Shown: one piece after another, positions 1-55,810 of the stretch
Position numbering within the stretch: the first letter of the stretch is position 1
Layout of the letters: every line of letters starts with the position of its first letter
Source of the DNA: Fidelibacterota bacterium
GTDB taxonomy: Bacteria; Pseudomonadota; Alphaproteobacteria; Rhodospirillales; Rhodospirillaceae
Assembly (NCBI GenBank): GCA_947472795.1
Contig: CANJBL010000003.1
Coordinates: forward strand, 124,001 to 188,000
Length of the DNA stretch: 64,000 nucleotides
Reading direction: 5' to 3'
Translations under genes and position numbers: made by a program
The notes under the pieces: generated by a model
Databases searched by the model: none
What the model was told of the DNA's origin: nothing
What the model saw: the letters and a program-made list of their open reading frames with translations, nothing else

Positions 1-1
1 C

Positions 2-505
2 CTTATCAAAGGCTCCAATACCGACGCGCTCAACATGACCAATGCCCGCTATTACGGTACGGATGACAAGGGCCAGCCCTATTCCGTCGTGGCGCAGGGT
101 GTGCGTCAGCGCAGCAATACCGAAAAAGCCGTCGATCTCGTGGCCCCTCAGGCCGAGATCAATCTCAACAACGGCAACGTTATGGCCGCGACCGCCGGTG
201 AAGGCAGCTATGACCGTGAAAATCAAAAGCTTGATCTCGCGGGCGGCGTGACCGTTACGCAGAACAAGGACAACCATCTGCGCACTTCGGCTGCACAGGT
301 GATGCTGAAGGAAGGCTCCGCCAGCGGCACCGCGCCTGTCTCTGGCGAAGGGCCTTACGGCAAAATGGAAGCTGCCGGCGGCTTCAATCTCTCCGACCGC
401 GGCCGCACGGTGCATTTTCATGGGAAGTCTCACTTGGTCTTGAATTCGCGTTCCGACACCGCTCCTGCGCCACCGCCAGCAAACGCTGGGAGTGCAAGAC
501 CATGA
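2..505 (+). CDS. lptC: LptC, LPS export periplasmic protein (5'-truncated)
   Basis: LptC is the bitopic inner-membrane/periplasmic part of the LptBFGC exporter and hands LPS to LptA. The frame is open from the window edge, so the N-terminal membrane anchor lies outside. What is visible is the beta-jellyroll part with the OstA-like pattern of short strands and Asn/Gly turns, for example LNNGNVMAATAGEGSYD followed by LDLAGGVTV, and a Pro/Ala-rich tail. The stop overlaps the start of lptA (ATGATG at 502), which indicates translational coupling in an lptC-lptA-lptB operon. The family is diverse, so the call rests partly on context, but the order is the standard alphaproteobacterial one. Confidence 0.88.
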   Translation, partial: LIKGSNTDALNMTNARYYGTDDKGQPYSVVAQGVRQRSNTEKAVDLVAPQAEINLNNGNVMAATAGEGSYDRENQKLDLAGGVTVTQNKDNHLRTSAAQVMLKEGSASGTAPVSGEGPYGKMEAAGGFNLSDRGRTVHFHGKSHLVLNSRSDTAPAPPPANAGSARP

Positions 506-1437
506 TGCCCAAGGCCACGATGATCGTTCGGCTTCTTGTCGCAGCAATGCTCACGACCGGCTTTGCGCTGACCGCAGAGGCGCAGTCCCTGAAGATGGAT
601 AGCGGCGGCAAGCCCATCGACGTCACAGCCGATAACGGCATCGAATTGCAGCAGGACAACAAGCGTGTCATCGCGCGCGGCAACGCTAAGGCCGTGCAGG
701 GTGACGTGAGCGTGACCGGCGACGAACTCATCGCCGACTACCGCACCAAAAATGACGGCGGTAATGAAGTCTATCGCGTGTTCGCGCGCGGTAACGTCAC
801 GATGAAATCCACCAGCGAGACCGCCACCGGCGAAGCGGCGGTTTATGATTTCGACAAGGGCGTGCTGGTGCTGGAAGGCAACAATGTCTCTCTCGTCAAT
901 GCCGACGGTTCGGTTGTGGCGCACCAGACATTGCAATACTGGTCCAACGAGAAAGTCGCTGTCGCCGAAGGGTCTGCCGTGGCCGTGGACAAAGAGAAGC
1001 GCAAGCTTTACGCCGACAAGCTCATCGCTTTCTTCAAGGATACCCCGACGCCAGCCCCAGGAGATAAAGGCGCCAAGAACCAGATCATGCCGCAGAATAA
1101 AGGCGATATTTCACTGCTGCAGGGCTTCGGCAACGTACGCATGGAGACCGCCAAGGAGACCGTGCGCGGCGACCGCGGCACCTACAATCTGGAAACCGGC
1201 ATCGCCACCCTCGACGGCGGCGTGAAAATCACGCAAAACCAGAACCAATTGGGCGGCGGTTTCGCCGTGGTGAACGTCAAGGGCGGCACGAGCCGCCTCT
1301 TCGCCAATGCCAAGGCCGCAGGGATGCCGGACGTGAGAGAGAATAAACGCGTCTCAGCGCTGATCGCGCCGAAGCCCAAAGATGATTCCGTCGCACCGGC
1401 GCCACCCGCCGCAGGCCCGGCCAGAGGACAAAAATGA
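502..1437 (+). CDS. lptA: LptA/OstA, periplasmic LPS bridge protein
   Basis: LptA polymerises into the periplasmic bridge that carries LPS from LptC to LptD. The 311-aa protein begins with a signal peptide (hydrophobic VRLLVAAMLTTGFALTAEA, cleavage near residue 27). An OstA domain follows with the typical opening, KPIDVTADNGIELQQDNKR, then GNAKAVQGDVSVTGDEL. It is longer than E. coli LptA (185 aa), as is usual in alphaproteobacteria, with an extra segment around residues 185-200 and a Pro/Ala-rich C-terminus. It overlaps lptC upstream and lptB downstream by 4 nt each. Two adjacent ATG codons (502, 505) are equally possible starts. Confidence 0.93.
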   Translation: MMPKATMIVRLLVAAMLTTGFALTAEAQSLKMDSGGKPIDVTADNGIELQQDNKRVIARGNAKAVQGDVSVTGDELIADYRTKNDGGNEVYRVFARGNVTMKSTSETATGEAAVYDFDKGVLVLEGNNVSLVNADGSVVAHQTLQYWSNEKVAVAEGSAVAVDKEKRKLYADKLIAFFKDTPTPAPGDKGAKNQIMPQNKGDISLLQGFGNVRMETAKETVRGDRGTYNLETGIATLDGGVKITQNQNQLGGGFAVVNVKGGTSRLFANAKAAGMPDVRENKRVSALIAPKPKDDSVAPAPPAAGPARGQK

Positions 1438-2207
1438 CTCCCGATACCTTGAACGACACACCGAAAAGCACCAGTGCTGCGCCCGACGCCGGCCTGGTGG
1501 TGCAGGGCCTCGGCAAGACCTTCAAGGGTCGCGCGGTGCTGAAGGATGTGAGCCTATCGGTGAAGCGCGGCGAGGCTGTGGGTTTGCTCGGTCCTAACGG
1601 CGCGGGCAAGACCACGTCTTTCTATTGTGTGACGGGCCTTATCAGTCCCGATCACGGCAAAATTTATCTCGACGACCAAGACATCACGCTGCTGCCTATG
1701 TATCGGCGCGCGCGGCTCGGCATCGGCTACCTGCCGCAGGAAGCGTCCATCTTTCGCGGCATGACCGTGGAAGGCAACATTCGCGCCGTGGCGGAAGTGG
1801 TTGAGACCGATAAGGCAGCTCAGAGTGCTTTGGTGGATGCGCTCCTGCGTGAGTTCTCCATTGAGCACTTGCGGCGTTCGCCGGCCTTGGCCCTCTCAGG
1901 CGGCGAGCGGCGCCGCTGCGAAATCGCTCGGGCTTTGGCCTCGCGCCCCAGCTTCATCCTGCTCGACGAACCCCTGGCGGGCATCGACCCCATTGCCGTG
2001 GGCGAGATCCGGGAGATGGTCTCGCACCTGAAGGACCGTGGTCTTGGCGTGCTGATCACCGACCACAACGTCCGCGAAACCCTGGACATCATCGACCGCG
2101 CCTACATCCTGCATGAAGGCACCGTGCTGTTTGAGGGTACTCCCTCAGAAATCGTGGCCCATGAAGGGGTTAGGCGGGTTTACCTGGGCGAGCGCTTCAG
2201 CCTCTGA
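1434..2207 (+). CDS. lptB: LptB, LPS export ABC transporter ATPase
   Basis: This is the cytoplasmic ATPase that powers LPS extraction by LptF/LptG. All ABC motifs are present in 257 aa: Walker A GPNGAGKTT at residues 53-61, the Q-loop Gln at 102, signature LSGGE at 154-158, Walker B LLDEP at 176-180 and the switch His at 211 (ITDHNVRET). The LPS/branched-chain-type features GIGYLPQEASIF and the C-terminal VRRVYLG agree with LptB. The N-terminus is about 18 residues longer than in E. coli. ATGA overlap with lptA couples the genes. It probably also serves the LptF/LptG-like pairs elsewhere in the window, since neither has its own ATPase gene. Confidence 0.96.
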   Translation: MTPDTLNDTPKSTSAAPDAGLVVQGLGKTFKGRAVLKDVSLSVKRGEAVGLLGPNGAGKTTSFYCVTGLISPDHGKIYLDDQDITLLPMYRRARLGIGYLPQEASIFRGMTVEGNIRAVAEVVETDKAAQSALVDALLREFSIEHLRRSPALALSGGERRRCEIARALASRPSFILLDEPLAGIDPIAVGEIREMVSHLKDRGLGVLITDHNVRETLDIIDRAYILHEGTVLFEGTPSEIVAHEGVRRVYLGERFSL

Positions 2208-9970: not shown

Positions 9971-11752
9971 ATGCAGCAAGCCCTTTCTTCTTCGGCCCTT
10001 CCGGCCCTTCAGCCGACGCCCAATATCGCGAGCCAGCCGCGGCGTCTCGCTGATTTTCCCACGCTGACCGAAGCCCTGGACTATGCGGCGCGTGGTGAAG
10101 CCGGGTTCAATTTCTATTCGGCGCGCGGCGCACTAGAGGCTGTCCTGACGCATCGCGATCTGCGCGACCGCGCCATCAGCCTCGCGTTGCGCCTGAGTGC
10201 CGCCGGTGTGAAACCGGGTGAGCGCGTTGCGCTTCTGGCGGCGACGTCGCCCGCGTTCCTGGAACTGTTTTTCGCCTGTCAGTACGCGGGCATTATTCCC
10301 GTGCCCATGCCGCTGCCGACAGCCTTTGGCCGCCGCGAAGCTTATATCGACCAGATCAAGGGCCAGCTCACATCCTCGGGCGCGCGCATGGCGCTCGGGC
10401 CTGCAGATTTTCTGCCGCTGGTCCGTGAGGCCGCCATGGGAATTTCGATGTCGCTCATCGGCAGCAATGCCGACATCTCGGCTTTGCCCGAAGGCAAAGG
10501 GACCTTGCAGCCGGGCGGCACGAACGATCTCTCTTATATACAGTACAGTTCCGGCTCGACGCGTTTCCCCATGGGCGTGATGGTGAGCCATGCCTCGCTA
10601 TTGGCCAACAGCGCCGCCATGGCGCGCGACGGCATACGCACGACGGCGGAAGAACGCGCTATGTCCTGGCTGCCGTTCTTCCACGACATGGGACTTGTCG
10701 GCTTCATGCTGGCGCCGCTCGCGAGCCAGACGTCCATCGATTATCTGGCCGCCGAGGATTTCGCGCGCCGTCCGCTGACCTGGTTGAAGATCATCAGCGA
10801 CAACGGCGGCACGCTCTCCTATGCCCCGTCCTTCGGGTACGAGCTGTGCGCGCGGCGTGTCGCGAGCAAAGCAGACGCGGACTTGAACCTCGATCTCTCG
10901 AAGTGGCGTATCGCCGGCATCGGCGGCGAGATGATCAAGCCGCATGTCATGCGGGCCTTCGCCGAGGCCTTCAAACCCTACGGCTTCTCCGACAAGGCTT
11001 TCTGCGCGAGCTACGGTCTGGCCGAATGCGTGCTGGCTGTGAGCTTCTCTGAAGCCGGCGCTGGCATGCGGCTTGACCACGTCAACAAGAATGCCCTTGA
11101 AGACCACCGCGCCGAGCCTATGCCTGAGGGCTCCGATGGCGCGCGCACCTTTGTCGCCTGCGGCAGGGCGATCCCAGACCACAAAATCGAAATCCGCGAT
11201 GAGCACGGCACCATATTGGGCCCGCGGCGTGTGGGCCGCGTGTTTGTCTTCGGCCCCAGCGTTATGCAGGGTTATTTCAACAACCCGGAAGGCACGGCGG
11301 AATGCTTGAAAGACGGCTGGCTTGATACTGGCGATCTTGGTTACTGGATCGATGAAGAGATGGTCATCGTCGGGCGCGCCAAGGACATGATGATCGTCAA
11401 TGGCCGCAACGTCTGGCCGCAGGATATCGAATGGACGGTCGAGCGCATCGACGGCCTCAAGTCCGGCGACGGGGCCGCGATCCTGCTCACTGATCCCGAC
11501 GGCACAGAACGCCCCACCATCCTTGTGCAGTGCCGCCCGTCCGATGCGGCTGAGCGCACACGGCTGATGAATGAGGTGCGTATGCGCGTGCAGGAAGCTA
11601 TCGGCATCGTTTGCGATGTTATTCTTGTGCCGACGCGCAGCCTGCCCAAGACAACATCGGGCAAACTCGCGCGCAGCCGCGCCAAGACCATGTTCCTCGC
11701 GGGCGACATCGTCGCGATCGACGCGGACGTGCCACCAACCCCCAAAGCCTGA
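9971..11752 (+). CDS. Fatty acyl-AMP ligase for the sphingolipid pathway
   Basis: A 593-aa ANL-superfamily adenylating enzyme of the FAAL type. The ATP motif reads YSSGSTRFPMGVMVSH at about residues 192-207; SGSTR instead of SGSTG is typical of FAALs, which load acyl groups onto carrier proteins rather than CoA. Also seen are the PFFHDMGLVGF motif, SYGLAE, the hinge GRAKDMMIVNGRNVWPQDIE and the C-terminal lysine motif LPKTTSGKLARS. It starts the plus-strand run FAAL-cerR-ACP-spt and probably charges the dedicated ACP at 12800 with the acyl chain that Spt condenses with serine. The Caulobacter ceramide locus has the same gene. AAGG lies about 10 bases before the ATG. Confidence 0.87.
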   Translation: MQQALSSSALPALQPTPNIASQPRRLADFPTLTEALDYAARGEAGFNFYSARGALEAVLTHRDLRDRAISLALRLSAAGVKPGERVALLAATSPAFLELFFACQYAGIIPVPMPLPTAFGRREAYIDQIKGQLTSSGARMALGPADFLPLVREAAMGISMSLIGSNADISALPEGKGTLQPGGTNDLSYIQYSSGSTRFPMGVMVSHASLLANSAAMARDGIRTTAEERAMSWLPFFHDMGLVGFMLAPLASQTSIDYLAAEDFARRPLTWLKIISDNGGTLSYAPSFGYELCARRVASKADADLNLDLSKWRIAGIGGEMIKPHVMRAFAEAFKPYGFSDKAFCASYGLAECVLAVSFSEAGAGMRLDHVNKNALEDHRAEPMPEGSDGARTFVACGRAIPDHKIEIRDEHGTILGPRRVGRVFVFGPSVMQGYFNNPEGTAECLKDGWLDTGDLGYWIDEEMVIVGRAKDMMIVNGRNVWPQDIEWTVERIDGLKSGDGAAILLTDPDGTERPTILVQCRPSDAAERTRLMNEVRMRVQEAIGIVCDVILVPTRSLPKTTSGKLARSRAKTMFLAGDIVAIDADVPPTPKA

Positions 11753-11757
11753 TAGCC

Positions 11758-12690
11758 ATGACGCCGCTTGTCGCAGTCACCGGCGCGACGGGGTTCATCG
11801 GACAACATCTGCTTCGGCGCCTGACGGCGTCTGGTATTCGCGTGCGCGCGCTCACACGAAAACCTGCTGCGCAGACCACAGCCGTGGAATGGATCGCGGG
11901 CGATCTCGCGAACCGCGACGCACTTGCGGCGCTCGTGAAGGGGGCCACAGCCGTCGTGCATTGCGCCGGCGCCATCAAGGCGCTTGGGCGCGAGGGGTTC
12001 TTCGCCGTGAACGGTGAGGGCAGCCGCCTCCTTGCCGAACTGGCGGCAGCGCAAGCCACGTGCCCGCGTTTTGTTCATGTGTCCTCGCTGGCCGCGCGGG
12101 CGCCGCATCTCTCGGCCTATGCCGCCAGCAAGCGTGCTGGAGAGGAATACGTCCAGGCCTTCGCGCCGAAGCTGCCCATGGTGATCCTGCGTCCGCCCGC
12201 CGTGTACGGGCCCGGCGACCCTGAGACCTTGCGCATCTTCAAACTGGCGGCGCAGGGATTTCTGCCTGCACCGATGGTGACGGGTGCGCGCCTGTCGCTG
12301 GTACACGCGGACGATGTAGTCAGTGCAATCCTCGCGGCTTTGGAAGGGACGCCCCCGCAGCCCGTGCCCCTAGAGTTCGATGACGGCAAAGAGCGTGGGT
12401 ATAGCTGGGCTGAGGTAGCCGCCATTGCGGGCCAGGTCCTGAACACCCTTCCGCGCCTGGTCTCTGTTCCCGCTCCGCTCCTCTATGCCGCCGGCGCTGT
12501 GGCCTCTTTGGGGGCGGTGCTCACCCGCCGGCCCACGGTCCTGTCGTGGGGAAAGGTGCCTGAACTCTTGCATCCCGACTGGGTGGCCACACCCATGGCC
12601 TTCCCCGGCTATAAGCCTTTGTGGACTCTGGAAAAGGGCTTTGCCGACGCGGTATCATGGTACCGCTCACAGGGGCTGTTAACATCGTAA
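11758..12690 (+). CDS. cerR: CerR-type ceramide reductase (extended SDR)
   Basis: An NAD(P)-dependent extended short-chain dehydrogenase of 310 aa. The Rossmann motif is VTGATGFIG at residues 7-15, catalytic YAASK gives Tyr121 and Lys125, and VSSLAAR supplies the catalytic serine. In the Caulobacter pathway the equivalent enzyme reduces the 3-keto group of the long-chain base after N-acylation, giving dihydroceramide. Its position five bases after the acyl-AMP ligase and before the ACP and spt supports this role; the fold alone could equally be a sugar epimerase or another lipid reductase. The ATG at 11758 gives the normal N-terminus directly before the first beta strand. Confidence 0.82.
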   Translation: MTPLVAVTGATGFIGQHLLRRLTASGIRVRALTRKPAAQTTAVEWIAGDLANRDALAALVKGATAVVHCAGAIKALGREGFFAVNGEGSRLLAELAAAQATCPRFVHVSSLAARAPHLSAYAASKRAGEEYVQAFAPKLPMVILRPPAVYGPGDPETLRIFKLAAQGFLPAPMVTGARLSLVHADDVVSAILAALEGTPPQPVPLEFDDGKERGYSWAEVAAIAGQVLNTLPRLVSVPAPLLYAAGAVASLGAVLTRRPTVLSWGKVPELLHPDWVATPMAFPGYKPLWTLEKGFADAVSWYRSQGLLTS

Positions 12691-12799: not shown

Positions 12800-13060
12800 A
12801 TGAGCGGCGCTGAACCGTCGAGTGACACGTTGGCGGCTCTCTTTGAAATCCTGAAATCGTTCAATAAAACCGGCGCCGAGCTCAAACCGGAGACGCGGTT
12901 CAGTGAAGACCTGAACTTTGATTCCCTGGTGGTTATGGAGTTCATCGCTGTTGTTGAGGACGCGTTCGATATTTCGGTGCCCCTCAACATTCTGCCGGAC
13001 ATCGCCTCGATCAAGGATCTGGCGCGTGCGGTGGAGCGGATAAAAACCGAAGACGCTTAA
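12800..13060 (+). CDS. Acyl carrier protein of the sphingolipid locus
   Basis: An 86-aa acidic four-helix carrier protein. The phosphopantetheine attachment site is Ser42 in FDSLVVMEF, followed by VEDAFDISVP, the usual helix II/III pattern. It is distinct from housekeeping AcpP, which lies near fab genes, and stands between cerR and spt, so it very likely carries the acyl group from the FAAL to serine palmitoyltransferase. AGGA sits six bases before the ATG. A 109-base gap separates it from cerR, so a second promoter before this gene is possible, though I see no clear one. Confidence 0.92.
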   Translation: MSGAEPSSDTLAALFEILKSFNKTGAELKPETRFSEDLNFDSLVVMEFIAVVEDAFDISVPLNILPDIASIKDLARAVERIKTEDA

Positions 13061-13106: not shown

Positions 13107-14339
13107 ATGGCTGACCTGTTAGATCGCTTCGCTCCCTTGATGGCCCAGCGCGATGCGCTTCTGGGCGATAGCGACACCAATCCCTTCAAAGTGAAGATGG
13201 ATCAGGTGCTCTCGCAGACGGAAGCCATGATCGCGGGCCGTCGCACCATCCTCGTCGGCACCAACAATTACCTCGGCCTGACCTTCGCGCCCGAAGCGCT
13301 GAAGGCCGCGCACGAAGCCCTGGAAGCTTGCGGCACCGGAACCACCGGCAGCCGCGTCGCCAACGGCACCTATTACGGCCACAAGGATCTGGAAGACGCG
13401 CTCTCCGAATTTTTCGGCAAAGAGCACGCCATGGTGTTCTCCACCGGCTTCCTGGCCAACCTCGGCATTCTCTCCACACTGATGGGCCCTGAGGATTACA
13501 TCCTCATGGATGCCGATTGCCATGCCTCCATCTATGACGGCGTGCGCGGCTCCTCCGCCCAGATTATCCGTTTCCGCCATAATGACGCCGCCGATCTTGA
13601 TAAGCGTTTGGCGCGCCTTGCCGACAAACCCGGCAACAAGCTGATCGTCATTGAAGGCATCTATTCCATGCTCGGCGACAAGGCTCCATTGGCCGAGATC
13701 GTTGCCGTGAAGAAGAAGTACAGCGGCGTCTATCTGCTCTCCGACGAAGCGCATTCGCTCGGCGTGCTCGGCAAGTATGGCCGTGGCCTGCCGGAAGAAG
13801 TGGGCTGTGAAGACGATGTGGACTTCATCGTCGGCACGTTCTCCAAGTCGGTCGGCACCGTCGGCGGCTTCTGCGTCTCCAACCATCCGCAATTCGATAT
13901 CCTGCGCCTCGTCACGCGCGCGTATGTGTTCACCGCGTCGCTGCCGCCGTCCGTCGTGGCGTCGGCCACTGTGAACCTGGGCCTCGTGAAGAACGGCGGC
14001 GCCTTGCGCGTTCGCCTGATGCGCAATGCGCAGAAACTGCAAATGGGCCTCACCGCCCTCGGCCTCAAGGTCGCCAGCGAGAACAGCCCGGTTGTGGCTG
14101 TGGTAGCGCCGGATCCGGCGATTGCGATTGCCTTCTGGCGCGGCCTGATCGAAGCCGGTGTCTATGTAAACCTGGCTCTGCCGCCGGCGACCCCGTACGG
14201 CTACTCGCTGCTGCGCGCGAGCCTCTGTGCCGCCCACACCGAAGAGCAGATTGACGAAGTCATCGCCATCTTCTCTGAAGTGGCCACGAAGATCGGTCTC
14301 ATCACACCGGCCAAGACAAAGCGCACCGCTGTCGGCTGA
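13107..14339 (+). CDS. spt: Serine palmitoyltransferase
   Basis: A PLP-dependent alpha-oxoamine synthase (410 aa) that condenses L-serine with an acyl thioester to form 3-ketosphinganine, the committed sphingolipid step. The PLP lysine is K247 in GTFSKSVG; DADCHASIYDG carries the His that stacks on PLP (139) and LSDEAHSLG the Asp and His (213, 216). KBL and BioF are close relatives, but the ACP and acyl ligase just upstream and a ceramide synthase downstream favour Spt, as in Sphingomonas and Caulobacter. GAGGTG precedes the ATG. A strong hairpin terminator follows at 14362. Confidence 0.92.
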   Translation: MADLLDRFAPLMAQRDALLGDSDTNPFKVKMDQVLSQTEAMIAGRRTILVGTNNYLGLTFAPEALKAAHEALEACGTGTTGSRVANGTYYGHKDLEDALSEFFGKEHAMVFSTGFLANLGILSTLMGPEDYILMDADCHASIYDGVRGSSAQIIRFRHNDAADLDKRLARLADKPGNKLIVIEGIYSMLGDKAPLAEIVAVKKKYSGVYLLSDEAHSLGVLGKYGRGLPEEVGCEDDVDFIVGTFSKSVGTVGGFCVSNHPQFDILRLVTRAYVFTASLPPSVVASATVNLGLVKNGGALRVRLMRNAQKLQMGLTALGLKVASENSPVVAVVAPDPAIAIAFWRGLIEAGVYVNLALPPATPYGYSLLRASLCAAHTEEQIDEVIAIFSEVATKIGLITPAKTKRTAVG

Positions 14340-14401: not shown

Positions 14402-15343
14402 CTAGCGGATGCCGCCGCGTTGGACGGTTTTGAAGAAGAGCCGCGCCCCGGTGATCAGTGGACGGCGGCGTTCAGCATCACTCAGGGTGATCTTCACGCC
14501 CGAGTGACGTTCGATCTTCCAGACAGCGTAATCCAGCCCGCCCTTGAAGGTGAAAGCGGCTTTGATGAGCCGTAAGGCGTTCAGTGTTTTGCCTGCGCCG
14601 CGCCGGAAGAACCATGCACGCTTAGCCCCTTTGTGCCGCGCCGTCGTTGCGTGCTGCACATAACGGCCATGGCCGTCGGGCGGCCCCAAGACGGCGGTGG
14701 TGATAGCCTCATAACGGGCGAGATCGCGATCCACCAATTCCAAACTCTTCGCAGCGCCCTCGGGCCGGAGTTCGGCGGCATATGTTGCGCCGAAAGCCGT
14801 GATCCAGAGGTCGCTGGCGGTGAAGTCGCCCCGCAGAAGCGGGCTCGTGCGCGTCATCGTCGTATGCACGGCGGCGGCAAGGCCGTCGATCAGACGTCGG
14901 CGGATTTCAGCATTGCGCGCATAAAGAATGAGCGCCGGCTGCGCGAAGCGGGCCCAGATGGTGGAGGTGAAAGTCTCCGGGCCGAGGCCATGCAAGAACT
15001 GGCCGACGGAAATGACCGCGACTTTGGCGCGTACCGTACGCTGTTCGAAAGCGATCTCGTGATAATAGACATTGGGCGGAAGCAATCGGGCGAAGACCGC
15101 CGACGTGACGTGACGCAGCGCGCGCGCATAGCTGTCCACCAGCACATAGAAATCGAGCAGAAGCCCCTCGTCGGTATTGGCGCGCAGGCAGGAGCCGTAG
15201 AACACAATGCCCGCGACGGTGGCGCCGTAATGCTGCTGCAAGTATGTGCCGAAGTCCTTGGCCGCTGGGAACGTATCGCTTTCTGCTTCCGCCGCGACAA
15301 TCTCGCGCAAGCCGCGCGCCGTCCCCAGGCCAGCCGGTGTCAT
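14402..15343 (-). CDS. Nucleotidyltransferase-like partner of the ceramide kinase
   Basis: A 313-aa soluble protein of uncertain function. Residues 45-75 (GIVFYGSCLRANTDEGLLLDFYVLVD) resemble the GS-x(n)-DxD core of the nucleotidyltransferase fold, but the motif is loose. A basic stretch RRGAGK and an RHSGVKIT segment follow near the C-terminus. Its start overlaps the end of the DGK-family kinase gene by 4 bases (ATGA), so both are made together. In Caulobacter, genes beside the ceramide kinase turn ceramide phosphate into an anionic ceramide phosphoglycerate; this protein could supply a later step, but no reaction can be read from the sequence. Confidence 0.6.
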   Translation of the reverse strand: MTPAGLGTARGLREIVAAEAESDTFPAAKDFGTYLQQHYGATVAGIVFYGSCLRANTDEGLLLDFYVLVDSYARALRHVTSAVFARLLPPNVYYHEIAFEQRTVRAKVAVISVGQFLHGLGPETFTSTIWARFAQPALILYARNAEIRRRLIDGLAAAVHTTMTRTSPLLRGDFTASDLWITAFGATYAAELRPEGAAKSLELVDRDLARYEAITTAVLGPPDGHGRYVQHATTARHKGAKRAWFFRRGAGKTLNALRLIKAAFTFKGGLDYAVWKIERHSGVKITLSDAERRRPLITGARLFFKTVQRGGIR

Positions 15344-16305
15344 GCCGGGATCCAGATGAAGTTGAGCTTGCGGTGACCGTCGAGTGTGAGGGGGCGTTCC
15401 TCCGTGGTCTCGTAGAGTTCACCGTCCAGGGTATAGGTCCCTGTAAAACGCAAGGTGATCCGTTCGAGGCGTTCTACCGTGCGTCCGCGTCCCGGCTTGA
15501 TGAGACGGCGCAGGATGCCCGGGATGGCGGCGAGGATGGTGGATGCTCCCATGCGCAGACTGACGTAGTTGAGCGTGGAATTCTCCGACGCATGGCCGGG
15601 CACGGGGCGTAATCCCAGAAGCATCTCGTCAAGAGCCGTCACCAGTACGATAAAGAAGTTGCCGCGCTCGACGATTTTCTCATCCTCGTGCACCGTCACG
15701 CCGCCGCGCGTGACATCGGCGGTGAGGCCACGCCAGAGCAGCAGCGCGATCGCGGCCACGTGGCTCATGGCATTGGGCATTTTCAGCGGGTAGATGTGGC
15801 GGCGGCAGAGCCTGATGCCTTCGACGATGTCTGCCGCGCCGAAGAAGGCGCCGTAAAGCGGCGCTTCGCCGTTGCCGCGCGCAAGCGTGAGGACTGGGCG
15901 CGTGACAATATGGTCCGCAAGCGTGCCAGCGCGGCGTTCACGCAGGAGCGCTTTCAGCGCCCCCTCGGGGGAACCCGTAAGGCTCCACTCGGAGGTTGTC
16001 ATATTGGTTTTGCCGGCGGGCAGCAGGGCCAGGGCCGGCAGCCGGCTGTAGGCTTTGCCGTTCAGAAGGGCTGCAAATACCAAGCCGGCCGTGCCGTCGC
16101 CGCCGTTGACCACAATGGTCTCAGCACCCACCTCGGCGCAACGTTCCAGCAGAGCGCCGACGCTCTCAGGCCCGTCGATCTCAAAATGGCTGACCTCGGT
16201 CTCATCCTTGAGGATGGGATCGACCCAATTATCCCCGCGCAGGTTGCGATTGCTACCGCGGTTGGTGATGACGGCGAGATGAGCCAGAGGAAGGCGCTTC
16301 AGCAT
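15340..16305 (-). CDS. cpgB: DGK-family lipid kinase, probable ceramide kinase (CpgB type)
   Basis: A 321-aa lipid kinase with the diacylglycerol kinase catalytic domain: VVNGGDGT at residues 65-72, ALLPAGKTNM at about 92-101 in place of the usual PxGTxND, and a C-terminal LDGELYET. Generic bacterial DgkB or YegS would fit the domain, but the setting among spt, cerR and bcerS points to the ceramide kinase of the Caulobacter ceramide phosphoglycerate pathway, which is evolutionarily distinct from eukaryotic ceramide kinase. I prefer the ATG at 16305 (MLKRLPLAHL); a TTG at 16326 would add seven residues. Transcribed divergently from the LptF-like gene. Confidence 0.78.
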   Translation of the reverse strand: MLKRLPLAHLAVITNRGSNRNLRGDNWVDPILKDETEVSHFEIDGPESVGALLERCAEVGAETIVVNGGDGTAGLVFAALLNGKAYSRLPALALLPAGKTNMTTSEWSLTGSPEGALKALLRERRAGTLADHIVTRPVLTLARGNGEAPLYGAFFGAADIVEGIRLCRRHIYPLKMPNAMSHVAAIALLLWRGLTADVTRGGVTVHEDEKIVERGNFFIVLVTALDEMLLGLRPVPGHASENSTLNYVSLRMGASTILAAIPGILRRLIKPGRGRTVERLERITLRFTGTYTLDGELYETTEERPLTLDGHRKLNFIWIPA

Positions 16306-16527
16306 GCCCGCGCCCTCGCGAACCAAGTCCCCACAAAAAGCCCGGAACTCCCGGCGCTCCGGTGTGTTCCTTTGGGCGCGCTACCATCCCTAGAGCCTTG
16401 GAATATTGCACAAAAGGCCCACTGGTTCACGGGTCCACGGTCGCCTACACTCCGCCCAACACGGGCGCGGTCCCACAGGGTGCGGGACACGCATACCTTA
16501 AGACGGGTTAGGTCCGGCTGGAGAGTC

Positions 16528-17784
16528 ATGATTAAAGCCATCGACCGCTATCTACTGCGCCAAATCGTTCCAACAATATCAGTCATCCTGTTCATCGCCA
16601 TCGTCATCCTGTGCATGGAGCGGCTGATGCGCTTGTTGGATATCGCGGTGGGGAACGGCGTGTCTACCTTGGTCGTCTTCCAGATGCTCTTCTATCTGTT
16701 CCCCTATTATATCAGCCTGGCGCTGCCGGTAGCCCTTTTCCTGGGGGTTCTCCTGGCCTTCCGCAAGCTCTCGGCCCAATCGGAACTGGACGCCATTCAT
16801 TCCTGCGGCATCGGCCTGGGCCGCCTGATCCGCTCGGCCCTGGTGCTGGGCGTCATCATGATGGGCTTCAACCTGGTTTTGACCGGCTATGTTCAGCCCT
16901 ACACCCGCTACCTCTTCCGGGTGGTGATGTTCAACATCACCTCGGGCGTCATCGAGCAGGGGATCGGCGAGGGCATCTTCATGAACCTGCCCAACGGCTA
17001 CACGTTGCGGGTGGAGCGCTCGCGGAACGCGGGCCGTGAACTCTACGGGGTCTTTGCCCACCGGCAGGAAGAAGACGGCCACATCGTCACGCTGACGGCT
17101 AAGCGCGGCGAGTTGCTGACCCGCGCGCTGGACGGCACCGTGTCCTTGCGCCTTTACGAAGGCAGCCGCTCCGAATGGGACCCGGTCACCAAAGCCGTTG
17201 CGACTTTGCAGTTCGATGTCTTCGACTGGCCCATGAACCTTGCCGACCTCGTGCGCTTCCGCGGGCGTGGCGGGGACAAAAGCGAACTGACACTGGCCGA
17301 GTTGATGCGCGGGTATCGCATCAACCTGCTGGCGGGGCGCAGCGGCAATATCGGCGAAGCCAACGCCACACCCGATCGCCCGCCCGAGGAAGTCATGGCG
17401 CCCTCGGCGGTGGCTTCGGAGTTTCACGGCCGCATCGTCTTCGCGCTCTCCATGCTGTTCCTGCCAATTCTTGCAGCGCCGCTTGGCATCATGACCACGC
17501 GCGCGAGCCGCTCTTTTGGGATGATCTTCGGTCTGCTGGTGGTCGTGAGTTATCACAAAGTGCTGGAGTTCACAGGCGCCTATGCTTCGGCCACGGGCGC
17601 TCCCGCGGGATTGATGCTGTGGACCGACTTCGCGATTTTCGTCGCCTGTACGCTGTATCTGTTTCACCGCACGGAAACGCAGGCCGGTACGCCGCCGGTG
17701 CTGCTGATGGAAGCGCGTTGGATCTCCTTCATCGACCGTATCATTTCCGTCTTCCGCCCAAAGCGGACAGCGGACGCGCGCTAA
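16528..17784 (+). CDS. LptF-like permease in the sphingolipid locus
   Basis: A YjgP/YjgQ-family permease of 418 aa. The six-helix arrangement is visible: TM1 at about 12-32, TM2-3 at 50-115, a periplasmic beta-jellyroll at about 125-270, and TM4-6 at about 290-380. Family motifs include IDRYLLRQ, the coupling region ALPVALFLGVLLAFRKLSAQSELDAIHSCG and RIVFALSMLFLPILAAPLGI. LptF and LptG pair in the membrane to extract LPS with LptB and LptC. This copy lies between ceramide kinase and ceramide synthase, with no lptD nearby, which suggests sphingolipid as the cargo. The start at 16528 follows GGAGAG; the frame runs further upstream but over the kinase gene. Confidence 0.88.
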   Translation: MIKAIDRYLLRQIVPTISVILFIAIVILCMERLMRLLDIAVGNGVSTLVVFQMLFYLFPYYISLALPVALFLGVLLAFRKLSAQSELDAIHSCGIGLGRLIRSALVLGVIMMGFNLVLTGYVQPYTRYLFRVVMFNITSGVIEQGIGEGIFMNLPNGYTLRVERSRNAGRELYGVFAHRQEEDGHIVTLTAKRGELLTRALDGTVSLRLYEGSRSEWDPVTKAVATLQFDVFDWPMNLADLVRFRGRGGDKSELTLAELMRGYRINLLAGRSGNIGEANATPDRPPEEVMAPSAVASEFHGRIVFALSMLFLPILAAPLGIMTTRASRSFGMIFGLLVVVSYHKVLEFTGAYASATGAPAGLMLWTDFAIFVACTLYLFHRTETQAGTPPVLLMEARWISFIDRIISVFRPKRTADAR

Positions 17785-17797
17785 AGGAACGAGGGGC

Positions 17798-18874
17798 ATG
17801 ATCCTTTCACGTTATCTGATCAAAGCGTTCATCGGCCGCTTCGCCATGCTGCTGATCGGGTTGGTGCTTTTCCTGCAGACGCTGGACCTCTTGGCGCAGG
17901 CTAATGAAGTGCTGTCCGGCGGAGGCGATCCCCTGCCGACGCTGACGCGTTATGTGATGCTACGTATGCCGTCGCTGGTGGAGACCGTGGCGCCATTGGC
18001 GGTGCTGCTGGGCGCGTTGACCGCCATGGTCAGCATGGCGACCACGAGTGAAATCATTGCCATGCGCGCGGCGGGGCGCTCGGTCCTCAGCCTCGTCGGC
18101 GGATTGGTCAGCGCCGGCCTCGTGTTGTCGGTGATGCTGTTTGTGTTCTCGGAATATGTTGTGGTGCCCGCGAACGGATCCCTGGAAGATTGGCGCGCTG
18201 CCGACTTCAAGACCGGCGAACAGCAAGTCAAGACCGGCGAGAACAGTTGGATGATGGAAGACAATACCATCATCCGCATCGGCCATGTCATGCGCGACGG
18301 TGGTGTGCTCAACGACGTGCGCCTGTTCAAGCAGGATGCCGACGGCAATATCGAGGACATCATCGGCATCCGTCTGGCCGTGTGGGAGAACGACCACTGG
18401 ACCACCTTCGAGATCAAGCGTCTCGGCGCTCACAATCTCGACCTGCCTGTGCCCACGACGTGGGACACGGCTTTGCGCCCGGAAAACTTCGTGCGGTTCG
18501 CCGTTCATCCCAATGAGCTTTCGCTCACGGCCTTGAAACAATATATCGGAAACGTGGCCATCGGTTCGCGGCCCGGTTATTTCTACGAAACATGGATACA
18601 GCAGAAGATCGCGGGGCCCATCGTGCTGGCGCTGATGCCGCTTCTGGCCGCCATTGCCGCCTTCGCCCATCACCGCCAGGGAAGCTCAATTGTTTCCGTG
18701 GTCTGGGGCGTTAGCATCGGGTTCACTTTTGTCATCGTCGATAACGTCGTGCTGGCCATGGGTCAGTTCGGCTCGTTGCCGCCCTTCCTCGCGGCATGGT
18801 TGCCCATCGCGCTTTTCGGCACGCTCGGGCTCTACCTGATCTTCAATTTTGAACACACTGGCGCCCGCACGTAA
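17798..18874 (+). CDS. LptG-like permease in the sphingolipid locus
   Basis: The 358-aa partner of the preceding LptF-like protein, same YjgP/YjgQ fold: TM1 at about 10-28 (FAMLLIGLVLFLQTLDLL), TM2-3 at 50-118 with LLGALTAMVSMATTSEIIAMRAAG, a periplasmic jellyroll, and TM4-6 at 255-350. EIIAMRAAGRS is the cytoplasmic coupling helix that contacts an LptB-type ATPase. It starts 13 bases after its partner, and the hydroxylase gene follows after about 60 bases, so the pair is likely transcribed with the ceramide genes. No ATPase gene is attached; LptB from 1434 or another copy would have to serve. Confidence 0.87.
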   Translation: MILSRYLIKAFIGRFAMLLIGLVLFLQTLDLLAQANEVLSGGGDPLPTLTRYVMLRMPSLVETVAPLAVLLGALTAMVSMATTSEIIAMRAAGRSVLSLVGGLVSAGLVLSVMLFVFSEYVVVPANGSLEDWRAADFKTGEQQVKTGENSWMMEDNTIIRIGHVMRDGGVLNDVRLFKQDADGNIEDIIGIRLAVWENDHWTTFEIKRLGAHNLDLPVPTTWDTALRPENFVRFAVHPNELSLTALKQYIGNVAIGSRPGYFYETWIQQKIAGPIVLALMPLLAAIAAFAHHRQGSSIVSVVWGVSIGFTFVIVDNVVLAMGQFGSLPPFLAAWLPIALFGTLGLYLIFNFEHTGART

Positions 18875-18933
18875 GCGGGCCTATAAACCGGCGACAAAGC
18901 ATTAAAGCGGGGGAATCCCCGGGGTCTGACATC

Positions 18934-19755
18934 GTGGGTCTCAAAATCGGTTTCTGGAGCGATAAGGAGTATTACCTGGACCGCATGGATTTAAGCGGTC
19001 TGGCGGAAGCCTATTTCCAGTACTACGCCATCGCGGCCTACATTGTGGTCGCTATCGCCTGCGCGGTCGGCGCGGTGTGGGGCTTTGCTCAAGGCGAGGC
19101 GCAGTTGCTGCCGGTGCTGGCGTCCATGGCCGCCACTTTTTTCATTTATCCCGTTGTGTGGTACCTGCTGCACCGCTTCATCCTGCACAGCAAATGGATG
19201 TGGAAGTCGCAGCTGACGGCCGGCACCTGGAAGCGCATCCACTACGATCACCACAGCGACCCCAATAATCTGAAGGTCCTGTTCGGCGCGCTCTATACGA
19301 CACTGCCGACGGTGGCGCTGGCGAGTATGCCGGTGGGATATCTGTTGGCGGGTTGGGTCGGCGCGCTGGCAGCGCTGGGCACGGGCGTGGTGCAGACCTG
19401 CATCTATGAATTCTTCCACTGCATTCAACACCTCGGGTATGCGCCGAAGTGGGCGTGGGTGCGCGAGATCAAAAGATTCCATATGTCGCATCACTTCCAC
19501 AATGAGACCGGGAATTTCGGCATCACGAATCTTTTCTGGGACAAGGTGCTGGGCACTTTTTATGACGGCGCGGCGGCACGTCCGCGCTCGGCCAGCGTGT
19601 TCAACCTCGGCTACGACGAGGAGGTGGCCAAGAGCTACCCTTATGTCGCGCGCCTGACTCCCAACTGGCCTTTCAACGCCAACCCAGTCCATCGCCGTCG
19701 CGAGCAAACCCAGCAGCGCACGACGAACGAGCCGGGTCCGGCCACCACCGGCTGA
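18934..19755 (+). CDS. Fatty acid hydroxylase-superfamily membrane enzyme
   Basis: A 273-aa integral membrane di-iron enzyme with the eight-histidine signature of the sterol desaturase/fatty acid hydroxylase family: HRFILH, HYDHH, HCIQH and HMSHHFHNE, the last two after TM pairs at about 20-45 and 60-80 and a central TM hairpin at 115-150. These enzymes add a hydroxyl or a double bond to lipid chains using O2. Placed directly before ceramide synthase, it probably hydroxylates the ceramide acyl chain or long-chain base. The start is a GTG; an ATG 17 codons later is an alternative. The C-terminus ends in a polar, Arg-rich tail. Confidence 0.83.
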   Translation: MGLKIGFWSDKEYYLDRMDLSGLAEAYFQYYAIAAYIVVAIACAVGAVWGFAQGEAQLLPVLASMAATFFIYPVVWYLLHRFILHSKWMWKSQLTAGTWKRIHYDHHSDPNNLKVLFGALYTTLPTVALASMPVGYLLAGWVGALAALGTGVVQTCIYEFFHCIQHLGYAPKWAWVREIKRFHMSHHFHNETGNFGITNLFWDKVLGTFYDGAAARPRSASVFNLGYDEEVAKSYPYVARLTPNWPFNANPVHRRREQTQQRTTNEPGPATTG

Positions 19756-19775
19756 ACCCCGCACCAGTATTTCCC

Positions 19776-20966
19776 ATGGACGCCGCCGCCACTCCCGCCG
19801 CAACAGCCACCCCGGTCGATGTCCGCCGTGTTGGTGCCCGTGGGAATTTGGGCGCGACCATTGCGCAGTTCATGCAGGTCGCGCACGCGACGCAAGGGCA
19901 CGATCCCTATTGGGTAGCGCCTTTGCCGCTGATCGAAGGCCAGCGCCTCAGTCCAAAATCAAACCCTTGGTTTCAGCACGGGGAGGCGGCCTTTTGGGTG
20001 GCGTCACGCGGCGGCAAACTGGTGGGGCGCATCTCGGCGCAGGTCGATCAAGCGCATCTTAAAATCTTCAACGATGCCACAGGCTTCTTCGGCTTCTTCG
20101 AAACCATCGACGACCAGAGTGTGACCGATGCGCTATTTGCAGTGGCCTTCGCATGGTTGCGCGAACGCGGCATGAAAAGATGCGTCGGGCCCTTCAGCCT
20201 GAATATCAACGACGAGTCCGGGCTGCTCATTGACGGCTTCAACTGCCCGCCGCGTCTGGCCATGGGGCACACTCAACCCTATTACCAACGCCTTGTGGAA
20301 GCCTCGGGCTTTACCAAGGTTGTGGACATGCGCGCTTATCTCACGCCCATGGACACCGGCCTGCCCTTCAAGCAGCTCAAGTGGCTGAAGCGCGCCTTGG
20401 ATCGGAACCCCACGCTGGCGGTGCGTTCGCTCGATGCGTCGCGCTACGACGAGGAATTTGCGTCCCTCATGCGCATCTTCCGTGCGGCCTGGGTGGACAA
20501 CTGGGGCTCGATCCCGGTGAGCGATGCCGAAGCCAAGCATATGGCCAAGGAGATGAAGCTCATCCTGGTGCCGGAACTGGTGTCCATCGCCACCATCAAC
20601 GGCGAGCCGGTCGCCATGTGCCTGGCGCTGCCGGACTTCAACGAGATGATTCGCGACCTGAAGGGCAAGCTGTTCCCGTTTGGTTGGGCCAAGCTGCTAT
20701 GGCGGGTGCTGACGCGCCGCACCTTCGTGTCGGGCACGCGTGTTGTGCTGATGGGCGTGATGCCCGAGTACAAGAACAAACCTTTGGGCTCGTTGCTGGC
20801 GCTCCTTACCGTCGGCCACGTGCGCGAGGCTTCGCTGAAACTGCGCATGCCTGTGTGCGAAATGAGCTGGGTGTTGGAGACCAATACGCAGACCTGTCAC
20901 TCCATCGAGGACATCGGCGGACGGGTGTATAAAACCTACCGCATGTACGAAAGAAGCCTCGCTTAA
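19776..20966 (+). CDS. bcerS: Bacterial ceramide synthase (bCerS type, GNAT-like fold)
   Basis: A 396-aa soluble acyltransferase with a GNAT-like layout, similar to the protein shown in Caulobacter to N-acylate 3-ketosphinganine. It is unrelated to the eukaryotic TRAM-LAG-CLN8 ceramide synthases. Recognisable stretches are ARGNLGATIAQFMQVAHA, HDPYWVAPL, GPFSLNINDESGLLIDGF and LLALLTVGHVREA, the last in the acyl-CoA-binding part. It lies 20 bases after the hydroxylase and 15 before the methyltransferase, thus in the middle of a plus-strand operon running from the LptF-like gene. No ribosome binding site is obvious before the ATG; coupling to the upstream gene is likely. Confidence 0.84.
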   Translation: MDAAATPAATATPVDVRRVGARGNLGATIAQFMQVAHATQGHDPYWVAPLPLIEGQRLSPKSNPWFQHGEAAFWVASRGGKLVGRISAQVDQAHLKIFNDATGFFGFFETIDDQSVTDALFAVAFAWLRERGMKRCVGPFSLNINDESGLLIDGFNCPPRLAMGHTQPYYQRLVEASGFTKVVDMRAYLTPMDTGLPFKQLKWLKRALDRNPTLAVRSLDASRYDEEFASLMRIFRAAWVDNWGSIPVSDAEAKHMAKEMKLILVPELVSIATINGEPVAMCLALPDFNEMIRDLKGKLFPFGWAKLLWRVLTRRTFVSGTRVVLMGVMPEYKNKPLGSLLALLTVGHVREASLKLRMPVCEMSWVLETNTQTCHSIEDIGGRVYKTYRMYERSLA

Positions 20967-20980
20967 AGCGAAGGACCTCG

Positions 20981-21694
20981 ATGCTGTCTCCCAACCTCAA
21001 TCTGGCGCTTTCCAGCGAAGACCTTGCCAATTTGGTGCTGCAGCGCACGGGCGCGTTCATCGACCTGGGCGGAACCGAGTTTGTGCGCCGATGGATAGAG
21101 ACCGGCGAAAAGGCGCAGTTGGCCCAGTATCTGGTGCAGACCGGCAACGTCGAGGAATACCTCCATCGCACCGTGGGTGAGCTATTTCATGAATTCACGG
21201 TGCTGAAGCCGTTTTTCGAAGAGACGACCCCGCGCAGAGTCGTGGGCATTGGGCCCGGCCTCGCTCTGACGGAGCTGATGATCTACGGCATCGGCCAGCC
21301 CCGGCTTGTCTTGATCGATGTGGAGGCCACCGATCAACATCAACACCTGTTTCATGCGCAAGGCTCCGGCTACTCGAGCCTTGAGTCCTGCCGCCGATTG
21401 CTGACGAACAATGGGGTCGATCCCGCCCATATCGAGATCTGCAATCCGCGCCGACACGCGTTGCCCGAGGGTTCGTTCGACGCGATCACCAGCCTGCTCT
21501 CCATGGGATTTCACTTCCCGTGCGATGAATATGCCGGTTTTATCTTGGCCGGCTTGCGGCCGGGCGGCCTGCTGATTTTAGACAAGCGCAAGAAAACCGA
21601 GGATGCCGGCTGGGAACAGTTGCGGCCTCACTTCGATGTGCGCAAGATCATTGATGGGCCGAAGGCCGAGCGCCTTATCCTCGCGCGGAAGTAG
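20981..21694 (+). CDS. SAM methyltransferase-like protein of the ceramide operon
   Basis: A 237-aa protein with a class I methyltransferase-like Rossmann core. Motif I reads VVGIGPGLALTELMIYG at about residues 88-104, an acidic residue closes strand 2 (LVLIDVE), and GGLLILDKRKK is the post-motif strand. The N-terminal 80 residues are helical and may be a substrate lid. GAAGGA precedes the ATG. It follows ceramide synthase by 14 bases and so belongs to the same operon. A role in modifying the sphingolipid head group is possible, but the substrate cannot be read from sequence and motif I lacks the canonical ExGxGxG. Confidence 0.62.
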   Translation: MLSPNLNLALSSEDLANLVLQRTGAFIDLGGTEFVRRWIETGEKAQLAQYLVQTGNVEEYLHRTVGELFHEFTVLKPFFEETTPRRVVGIGPGLALTELMIYGIGQPRLVLIDVEATDQHQHLFHAQGSGYSSLESCRRLLTNNGVDPAHIEICNPRRHALPEGSFDAITSLLSMGFHFPCDEYAGFILAGLRPGGLLILDKRKKTEDAGWEQLRPHFDVRKIIDGPKAERLILARK

Positions 21695-21708
21695 CCAAGG
21701 AGCGCCGG

Positions 21709-21969: not shown

Positions 21970-21970
21970 G

Positions 21971-50571: not shown

Positions 50572-51765
50572 ATGCACGCGCTTGTCGATCGTTATATCGC
50601 ACGCCTGATGTTCGTGCCGCTGGCCGCAACATTGCTTGTTTCAGCCATGCTTCTGCTGCTCGTGCGCATGGCCGAGCTGTTCGATTTCGTCATCGACGAA
50701 GGCGGCACGGGCGGCACGGTCCTGCGCCTGCTCGCCAACCTCATGCCGCAATATCTGGCCTTGGGATTGCCTTTGGGCTTGCTGATGGGCGTGCTGCTCG
50801 CCTTCCGGCGCCTGGCCCTCAGCAGCGAACTCGATGCCATGCTGGCGACGGGGGTCTCCTACGCACGCCTTCTGAAAGTGCCCATGTTGTACGCGGCCGG
50901 GTTGGCGCTACTCACCGTTGGCGTGGTTGGGTTCATCCAGCCTCTGAGCGCCTACGGCCACGAGAAACTCATGTTCGATTTGAACAACGGGCGCATGGGC
51001 TTCAGCATCCGTGTGGGCGAGTTCACGCATCTCGGCGACAAGGTCGTGGTGCGTGCGGAGCGCTCGCGTCACGGCGGGCGCGATCTTTCGGGCGTGTTCG
51101 CCACCGTCACCGATGCCAAAGGGCGCATGGTGGTGTTCTCGGCGGCGCGAGGCGAATTGCGCCCGGCCGCGGACGGAGAAACCATGATCGCGCGACTGTT
51201 CGACGGCACGCTGGCGCGCCTCGACACTGAAAGCGGTACGAACCAGTCCACACACTTCGCGGCCTATGAGATCCCGCTCAATCTGCCCTCAGCCCCGGTG
51301 TTCCGCAAACGCGGCGAGCACGAGCGTGAGATGACGCTGCCGGAACTGTTCAGCCTCGCGGGCGATGCCGCAGCACCCCCAACGATGAAACGCCAAGCCG
51401 AGGCGGGTATCTTCCGGCGCGCGGCGCAAGTCCTGGTGCTCTTTTTTCTGCCGCTGCTGGGCATGGCTTTCGCCCGGCCGCCGCGCAGGTCTCATAGCGG
51501 TATCGGTGTGTTCCTAGGTCTCGCGAGCTTCATCATCTACAACGAGCTGTCGCTGTTTGGCGAACGATTGGGGTTCACTGGCCAAGTGGTGCCTTTGCCG
51601 GCGCAAGCTGCATCCTTTCTGCCTTTCGCGGGCCTTTGCGTGGCCGTGTTCCTTGTCTCGGCTTTCAAGGCCGGCGAGCCGCCTCTGTCGCGCATTTCTG
51701 CGCTGCTTTCGAATGTCATCGCCTGGATACGCCCGGCACCGCTGGCACCTGGAAAAGGCGCCTGA
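50572..51765 (+). CDS. LptF-like permease, second pair
   Basis: A 397-aa YjgP/YjgQ-family permease, paralogous to the protein at 16528. It shows LVDRYIARL at the N-terminus, the coupling segment LGLPLGLLMGVLLAFRRLALSSELDAML with TM2-3, VRAERSRHGGRDLSGVFATV in the periplasmic jellyroll, and LFFLPLLGMAFARPPRR in TM4-5. The start at 50572 gives the normal N-terminus; the frame is open a few codons further up. It is followed by an LptG-like gene, not by lptD as for many housekeeping pairs. It could be the LPS exporter pair or one for another glycolipid. Confidence 0.87.
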   Translation: MHALVDRYIARLMFVPLAATLLVSAMLLLLVRMAELFDFVIDEGGTGGTVLRLLANLMPQYLALGLPLGLLMGVLLAFRRLALSSELDAMLATGVSYARLLKVPMLYAAGLALLTVGVVGFIQPLSAYGHEKLMFDLNNGRMGFSIRVGEFTHLGDKVVVRAERSRHGGRDLSGVFATVTDAKGRMVVFSAARGELRPAADGETMIARLFDGTLARLDTESGTNQSTHFAAYEIPLNLPSAPVFRKRGEHEREMTLPELFSLAGDAAAPPTMKRQAEAGIFRRAAQVLVLFFLPLLGMAFARPPRRSHSGIGVFLGLASFIIYNELSLFGERLGFTGQVVPLPAQAASFLPFAGLCVAVFLVSAFKAGEPPLSRISALLSNVIAWIRPAPLAPGKGA

Positions 51766-55280: not shown

Positions 55281-55810
55281 AAACTTGGACGATGATCGCG
55301 AGCCTTCTGCTTCTAGCGCCGCCCGCCATGGCCGGCGAGGCGATTGTCCTGGGCCCGCATCCGGAGGCTTGCGCTCTGGATGCAAAGGGGCCGTCGGTGC
55401 TCGTGCATGTGCACGGTTTCAAGGACCACAGCGGGATTCTGCGGGTGGAATTATATCCTGGAACGGAGGAGGACTTCCTCGCTCCGCGCGCCAAACTGCA
55501 GGAAGAAGGCAAAGTCTTCGAGCGCATCGATCTGCCCATGCCTAAGACGGGCGATGCGGTTGATGTCTGCGTGGCCTTGCCGGCAGCCGGCATGTACACC
55601 ATGTCGATCTTGCACGATCGCAATGCCAACAGCCGGTTGGACGCCTTCAGCGATGGGTACGGCTTTCCCAACAACCCGCGCCTGGGTTACAAAAAACCGC
55701 CGGCGTCCGAAGTGATTTTCGCCGCGGACGGTCAGACCACCATCGACGTGGTGCTGAACTATTGGACCGGCTTCGCTGCCAGACCCATTCGTCGCAGAAA
55801 CGACGACTAA
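55277..55810 (+). CDS. DUF2141 secreted protein
   Basis: A 177-aa exported protein (signal peptide MKTWTMIASLLLLAPPAMAG) with a DUF2141 beta-sandwich: VLVHVHGFKDHSGILRVELY, YTMSILHDRNANSRLDAF and DGYGFPNNPR are family motifs. These proteins occur beside envelope lipid glycosylation genes; their function is not known. It ends the plus-strand operon and converges with the second GT4 gene, with a 4-base overlap. Confidence 0.88.
   Translation: MKTWTMIASLLLLAPPAMAGEAIVLGPHPEACALDAKGPSVLVHVHGFKDHSGILRVELYPGTEEDFLAPRAKLQEEGKVFERIDLPMPKTGDAVDVCVALPAAGMYTMSILHDRNANSRLDAFSDGYGFPNNPRLGYKKPPASEVIFAADGQTTIDVVLNYWTGFAARPIRRRNDD

Follow-up and report, generated by a model that had tools for sequence, protein, structure and literature searches.

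An LptF/LptG pair among ceramide genes: a candidate sphingolipid extractor

In the stretch of DNA analysed here (64,000 nt, hereafter the window), an LptF/LptG pair embedded among sphingolipid genes (pair A, Table 1) quite likely encodes a dedicated sphingolipid-extracting heterodimer, which would share LptB and the Lpt bridge. According to the mechanism proposed, the heterodimer would be specialised for sphingolipids, which pair A and the shared LptB would extract from the inner membrane and pass along the common Lpt bridge, and LPS would be handled separately by a housekeeping pair of the same genome (pair C). A sphingolipid permease had been suggested for this locus in an earlier note, and the clade of the pair, its co-occurrence with bacterial ceramide synthase (bCerS) and its residues all support this reading, while we infer export itself, the substrate and direction of transport, the sharing of LptB, LptC, LptA and LptD, and any flippase step before extraction.

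Both genes of pair A are complete, are separated by 13 nt and open a run of five plus-strand genes (LptF, LptG, hydroxylase, bCerS and the end-of-run protein), with a DAGK-family kinase gene on the minus strand ∼200 nt upstream of LptF. The earlier note had described a YjgP/YjgQ (LptF/LptG) pair lying between a ceramide kinase and the hydroxylase/ceramide synthase genes and followed by further genes at small gaps; the coordinates and profile scores bear this out, the gaps being 59 nt before the hydroxylase, 20 nt before bCerS and 14 nt before the end-of-run gene. LptF and LptG score 242.8 and 212.6 bits, respectively, with the PF03739 profile (curated cut-off 27.9), and both pass the cut-offs of the more specific profiles TIGR04407 (LptF, 234.5 bits against 230) and TIGR04408 (LptG, 271.2 bits against 240). 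The AlphaFold model of pair A LptF (pLDDT 85.2) has its best PDB matches among LptF chains (Z up to 27.9, 340 aligned, rmsd 6.4); as modelled, the protein has the architecture of solved LptF, in which a helical membrane domain is combined with a periplasmic beta domain. A promoter scan of positions 16100-22000 yielded no match, and the same interval contains eight terminator-like sites against a shuffled mean of 5.6. In the nearest relative found (L148), which has ∼78% amino acid identity to pair A, the order LptF-LptG-hydroxylase-bCerS is the same. The dN/dS of pair A against this relative is 0.13-0.15 and that of the neighbouring bCerS 0.15, and by this sequence measure pair A is under purifying selection like that on bCerS.

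Table 1. Lpt, sphingolipid and glycosyltransferase genes of the window (coordinates in nt from its first letter).
Feature	Position	Strand	Evidence
LptC	1..505 (start precedes window)	+	PF06835
LptA	538..1437 (start approximate)	+	PF03968, E 5.7e-15
LptB	1434..2207	+	TIGR04406 365.1 bits, cut-off 240
Fatty acyl-AMP ligase, candidate sphingolipid acyl-activating enzyme	9971..11752	+	NF006624, 784.3 bits, cut-off 600
Ceramide reductase candidate (CerR, NAD-dependent epimerase family)	11755..12690	+	PF01370; name by position
Acyl carrier protein candidate	12800..13060 (approximate)	+	∼86 aa, DSL motif, read from translation
Serine palmitoyltransferase (Spt)	13107..14339	+	NF047599, 609.9 bits, cut-off 500
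Unannotated protein	14402..15343	-	nucleotidyltransferase-like motif by reading; 4 nt overlap with kinase
Ceramide kinase candidate (DAGK_cat)	15340..16326	-	PF00781, E 6.2e-14
LptF of pair A, S clade	16528..17784	+	418 aa, start ATG
LptG of pair A, S clade	17798..18874	+	358 aa
Fatty acid hydroxylase family protein	18934..19755	+	PF04116, E 1.9e-19
Bacterial ceramide synthase candidate (bCerS)	19776..20966	+	
End-of-run protein	20981..21694	+	methyltransferase-like by reading of sequence
LptF of pair B, S clade	50572..51765	+	PF03739, E 7.6e-55; tree
LptG of pair B, S clade	51768..52871	+	TIGR04408 248 bits, cut-off 240; tree
Glycosyltransferase, GT4 type, beside pair B	53123..54334	+	PF13439, PF00534
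Unannotated protein next to pair B, putative membrane protein	54357..55280	+	no Pfam match
DUF2141 protein near pair B	55268..55810	+	PF09912
Second glycosyltransferase near pair B	55807..56994	-	PF00534

The gene that we take to be bCerS is so named for its location, close to Spt and the rest of the ceramide genes; its product has no Pfam or NCBIfam match, and the same holds for the end-of-run protein and for the unannotated protein overlapping the kinase. Homologues of the hydroxylase, of that unannotated protein and of the ceramide kinase candidate were found in 28, 26 and 24 of the 36 fetched bCerS-linked loci, respectively, and the end-of-run protein has no homologue in any of the 116 bCerS loci compared. 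With candidates present for the acyl-AMP ligase, CerR, the acyl carrier protein, Spt and bCerS, each of the five ceramide genes that PMC11324152 names in Caulobacter has a candidate here.

The linkage of pair A to sphingolipid genes is more than chance. Out of at least 580 bCerS loci 80 named ones were kept, and LptF/G genes lie within 10 kb in 50 of them; among the 48 loci flanked by 5 kb or more at each end the count is 41, with none in range in the other seven. Loci with LptF/G come from Alpha-, Beta- and Gammaproteobacteria, Desulfobacterota and an Acidobacteriota MAG, and gene order and orientation vary, so that the linkage is not just the inherited order of one lineage. This recurrence also bears on the explanation that the cargo of pair A is not the sphingolipid itself but a different lipid, the synthesis of which is tied to this cluster. 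The direct neighbour of the pair is indeed a hydroxylase with no assigned substrate, and the last gene of the run has no family match; yet this explanation is improbable, given that the linkage to bCerS persists across these gene orders and taxa, that the last gene has no counterpart in the loci compared, and that the hydroxylase is absent from 8 of the 36 fetched loci.

Six PF03739 genes in the genome form three LptF/G pairs, A, B and C, of which the housekeeping pair C is split, its LptF adjoining LptD on contig 9 and its LptG standing alone on contig 12. One LptD was found, the LptC of the window is the sole PF06835 match in the genome, and the LptB of the window is the only ATPase above the TIGR04406 cut-off (next best 151.4 bits). 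The lptC-lptA-lptB genes occupy window positions 1-2207, 14 kb upstream of pair A, and are followed by an ORF that reads as rpoN. Neither these genes nor pairs B and C had been mentioned in the earlier note. A single LptB over the cut-off, together with the LptB-docking glutamates kept in pair A, fits the shared LptB that had been predicted for this pair. The same numbers (three pairs, for which there is a single LptB over the cut-off and a single copy each of LptC and LptD) could speak in favour of pair A being a regulator, or forming hybrid F/G dimers with housekeeping subunits that adjust LPS export during sphingolipid synthesis. This is very improbable, as no housekeeping-clade pair to mix with was found in bCerS genomes lacking LpxC (see below).

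The relationships of the pairs were addressed by a maximum-likelihood tree of 96 concatenated LptF+LptG pairs with the E. coli outgroup (support given as bootstrap/SH-aLRT), which includes 16 of the 80 named loci, chosen by hand, and does not include pairs in which either protein is absent or shorter than 250 aa (L107, L111, L146, L031 and those named loci that are incomplete); F sequences of L107, L146 and L031 entered the single-gene F tree. Three clades were obtained: D (32 rows, 100/100), S (55 rows, 100/99) and T (8 rows, 100/100). Clade D comprises all 19 rows labelled LptD-linked (in two of which, G043 and G170, the pair is split and one gene only adjoins LptD), five bCerS-free control rows and pair C. 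Clade S contains pairs A and B. Of the bCerS-linked pairs (linked meaning on the same contig at <30 kb), it takes in every one of the 25 that come from LpxC-less genomes and 12 of the 13 that come from LpxC-bearing ones, the thirteenth being in the third clade; L201 and L216, two loci from Caulobacteraceae MAGs, belong to the clade of pair A as well. Pair A is nearer to pair B than to pair C. The phylogeny that the earlier note had asked for thus places pair A in a clade apart from the LptD-associated pair of its own genome, and the 96-pair tree rules out that it groups with the housekeeping LptFG. The dedicated permease pair envisaged in that note stands as regards membership in the sphingolipid clade, but the genome has two such pairs, not one.

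The single-gene trees include 49 LptF and 47 LptG sequences from bCerS-free genomes, obtained from 60 stretches that represent a partial set of such genomes and yielded sequences from 49 of them. Not one of these LptF (0/49) or LptG (0/47) sequences falls in clade S, the support of which is low in these trees (37 for F, 62 for G); 35 LptF and 31 LptG sequences fall in clade D and the remainder outside both. In 15 genomes, bCerS distances correlate with those of the S pairs at r 0.61 and with those of the D pairs at r 0.51, values too similar to make the correlation an argument for the S pairs.

The phyletic pattern was surveyed in 385 genomes of the class (Alphaproteobacteria, as judged from named relatives), 51 of which have bCerS homologues, and the loss of LPS was judged by LpxC alone. 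Of the three matches of G344 in this survey, one is among the matches listed. LpxC is present in 24 of the 51 bCerS genomes and absent from 27, counts that do not represent independent events because the genomes are related. All 24 LpxC-bearing bCerS genomes have a D pair, accompanied by an S pair in 19 and by a T pair in two and occurring by itself in three (G035, G079 and G184, the last with a weak, partial bCerS match). None of the 27 LpxC-less bCerS genomes has a D pair, and 24 of them have an S pair, which lies within 5.2 kb of bCerS in 23 genomes and 23.8 kb away in one. LptD is kept in all these 24, with no LptF/G pair within 2 kb of it in any; LptC was seen in 19, and the stretches fetched around it contain LptB in 16 of the 19 and LptA in 14. 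Every pair that the LpxC-less bCerS genomes with LptFG contribute to the tree is an S pair, with one in 23 genomes and two in G341; a lone extra LptF-like gene of G244 lies outside clade D. Absence of LpxC thus goes with absence of the LptD-linked pair and with retention of the bCerS-linked pair and the bridge. That sphingolipid-making relatives without LpxC usually have the S pair as their sole LptFG suggests that it loads sphingolipids onto the LPS export bridge.

The genome under study carries LpxC, and both proteins of pair A pass the curated cut-offs of LPS permease LptF and LptG, which would agree with pair A being a second LPS exporter, duplicated to serve dosage or an LPS variant, with its position in the sphingolipid cluster incidental. 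This is nevertheless improbable in view of the 24 LpxC-less bCerS genomes whose only pairs in the tree are S pairs, the absence of all 49 bCerS-free LptF sequences from clade S, and the loss in most S rows of the LptG basic pair touching the lipid A phosphate and core. Some observations speak against the proposed role of pair A as a sphingolipid extractor. An LptF/G pair lies within 15 kb of bCerS in only 14 of the 24 LpxC-bearing bCerS genomes, and the S pair is at least 0.45 Mb from bCerS in three of the LpxC-bearing genomes and on another contig in others. Three of the bCerS genomes without LpxC, all from a single family (G066, G280 and G358; loci L248-L250), gave no match for LptFG, LptD or LptC, and these bacteria are, going by gene content, apparently sphingolipid makers without the Lpt system. 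Among the seven proteins around bCerS of G066, a replacement exporter is not obvious, except for an MFS protein; for the stretches of G280, G358, G035 and G079, the comparison covered the genes of the window. Together with the D-only genomes, these three imply that sphingolipids can do without S pairs.

A rule that LpxC-less genomes free of bCerS have no LptFG was also considered and rejected: in a sample of 76 genomes, five of nine such genomes (G019, G023, G059, G062 and G074, in which LpxC was possibly missed) keep LptF/G-like genes, so that LptFG without LpxC is not in itself proof of sphingolipid export. None of these genes falls in clade S; those of G059 are in clade D, and the F of G019, G062 and G074 as well as the G of G019, G023 and G062 are outside it.

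The residues of the 55 S, 32 D and 8 T rows were compared in E. coli/Shigella numbering, in the light of the available text of the structural reports. The coupling-helix glutamates that dock on LptB, LptF E84 and LptG E88 (PMC5082905), are found in 55/55 and 53/55 S rows, respectively, and pair A has both. LptG K40/K41, which contact the lipid A 4'-phosphate and the inner core (PMC6744409), behave differently: position 40 is basic in 1/55 S versus 28/32 D rows and position 41 in 6/55 versus 30/32, and pair A has N and E at these positions, with the LPS-contacting basic pair thereby lost. At LptF position 30, which is three residues away from R33, all 55 S rows and none of the 32 D rows have a basic residue, and we infer that this position may meet the sphingolipid headgroup. 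Of the two arginines that reach the nucleotide, LptF R292 and LptG R301 (PMC5082905, PMC6744409), the former is kept in 53/55 S rows and 1/32 D rows and the latter in 50/55 and 27/32. LptF R292 is essential in Shigella (PMC6744409); in the housekeeping clade D it is replaced by F in 24 of the 32 pairs. Other contacts do not tell S from D: the LPS-contact position LptG K34 is acidic in most rows of both, which indicates that LPS contacts vary, and LptF R33 has a basic residue in most rows of either clade.

The second S pair of the window, pair B, groups with the pairs of family f14 and a Sphingosinicella MAG pair (SH-aLRT 100); its LptF scores 201.0 bits with TIGR04407, under the cut-off of 230, and its LptG has Q at the LptB-docking position E88. 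The genes next to it recur at bCerS loci of other genomes. In G123, homologues of four pair B neighbours (57, 49, 39 and 29% identity) are found within ∼16 kb together with LptFG, the acyl-AMP ligase, CerR, Spt and bCerS, the 57% match being to the GT4-type glycosyltransferase. The unannotated putative membrane protein has a 39% identical homologue adjoining LptFG in L095, the second glycosyltransferase is 49% identical to its homologues in L247/L095 and L193 and 45% to that in L206, and the DUF2141 protein has homologues in 10 of the 36 fetched bCerS-linked loci. The named bCerS loci L193 and L206 contain both glycosyltransferases, with no LptFG in range. In all, the glycosyltransferases are matched at bCerS loci of three genomes at >40% identity, a fourth locus giving a 28% match. 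These matches are no more than suggestive of pair B being a glycosphingolipid module, with pair A serving the phospho form. A split by which a ceramide kinase would be near A-like and absent near B-like pairs was rejected, the f41 loci grouping with B and three of them carrying a kinase homologue. That three parallel extractors (C for LPS; A, with the ceramide kinase candidate beside it, for phosphosphingolipid; B, with its two glycosyltransferases, for glycosphingolipid) would feed one LptB/LptC/LptA/LptD bridge, which in LPS-less bacteria would serve sphingolipid in its entirety, LptD included, is a tentative scheme, the chances of which are a little under even.

Clade T (L163, L220, L199, L226, L175, L207, L104 and L131) is, like clade S, mostly bCerS-linked (seven of eight rows; the eighth, from G246, has bCerS on another contig), and, unlike clade S, has no basic residue at LptF position 30 in any of its eight rows. 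Five of these rows come from outside the Alphaproteobacteria (two Desulfobacterota, two Gammaproteobacteria and one Acidobacteriota). Owing to its separate branch and the lack of the basic residue, clade T probably represents a second, independent recruitment of LptFG to bCerS.

If the proposed role of pair A is true, the LPS export machine would be a general surface-lipid bridge, with interchangeable LptFG pairs deciding the cargo. Bacteria lacking LPS would then retain the Lpt bridge for sphingolipids, and inhibitors of LptFG might also work against them. Residues for the choice of cargo would be named, and the question could be tested in Caulobacter and Sphingomonas.

The sphingolipid route to the outer membrane is stated as unknown in the available text of PMC11324152 and PMC11087976, the latter adding that no sphingolipid transporter has been identified. 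In the case of Caulobacter, LptC2, LptF2 and LptG2, together with a flippase (CC_1166), were proposed in 2024 for phosphosphingolipid transport (PMC11324152), which makes the 'largely undescribed' of the earlier note too strong. The basis given there is annotation, position and cofitness (0.60 between CC_1156 mutants and CC_1159), transport being stated as not investigated, and the available text gives no phylogeny, LPS-loss or residue evidence. The core idea is thus already in print as a suggestion, whereas the LPS-loss pattern, the residue switch and a second pair were not met in the available text of that paper; nor were these, the clade split or a second, glycosyltransferase-linked sphingolipid LptFG pair met in the accessible part of the open literature, taken as distinct from subscription papers and supplements. 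As described in the text available, LptF2/LptG2 of C. crescentus (CC_1156/CC_1155; LptC2 is CC_1168) resemble pair A in adjoining the ceramide synthase gene inside the ceramide/phosphosphingolipid cluster and in being second to another pair, a likeness that is based on gene position and the MAG loci L201/L216 and not on direct protein comparison. Differently from Caulobacter with its LptC2, one LptC was detected here by PF06835, a profile which a diverged copy could escape, and there are two S pairs against one in the Caulobacter proposal. With LptB2FG of E. coli/Shigella and with clade D, the S pairs have in common the fold, the coupling-helix glutamates and LptG R301, and with E. coli also LptF R292; they differ from the LPS extractor in mostly lacking LptG K40/K41 and in the always basic LptF position 30, and from clade D in being linked to bCerS instead of LptD.
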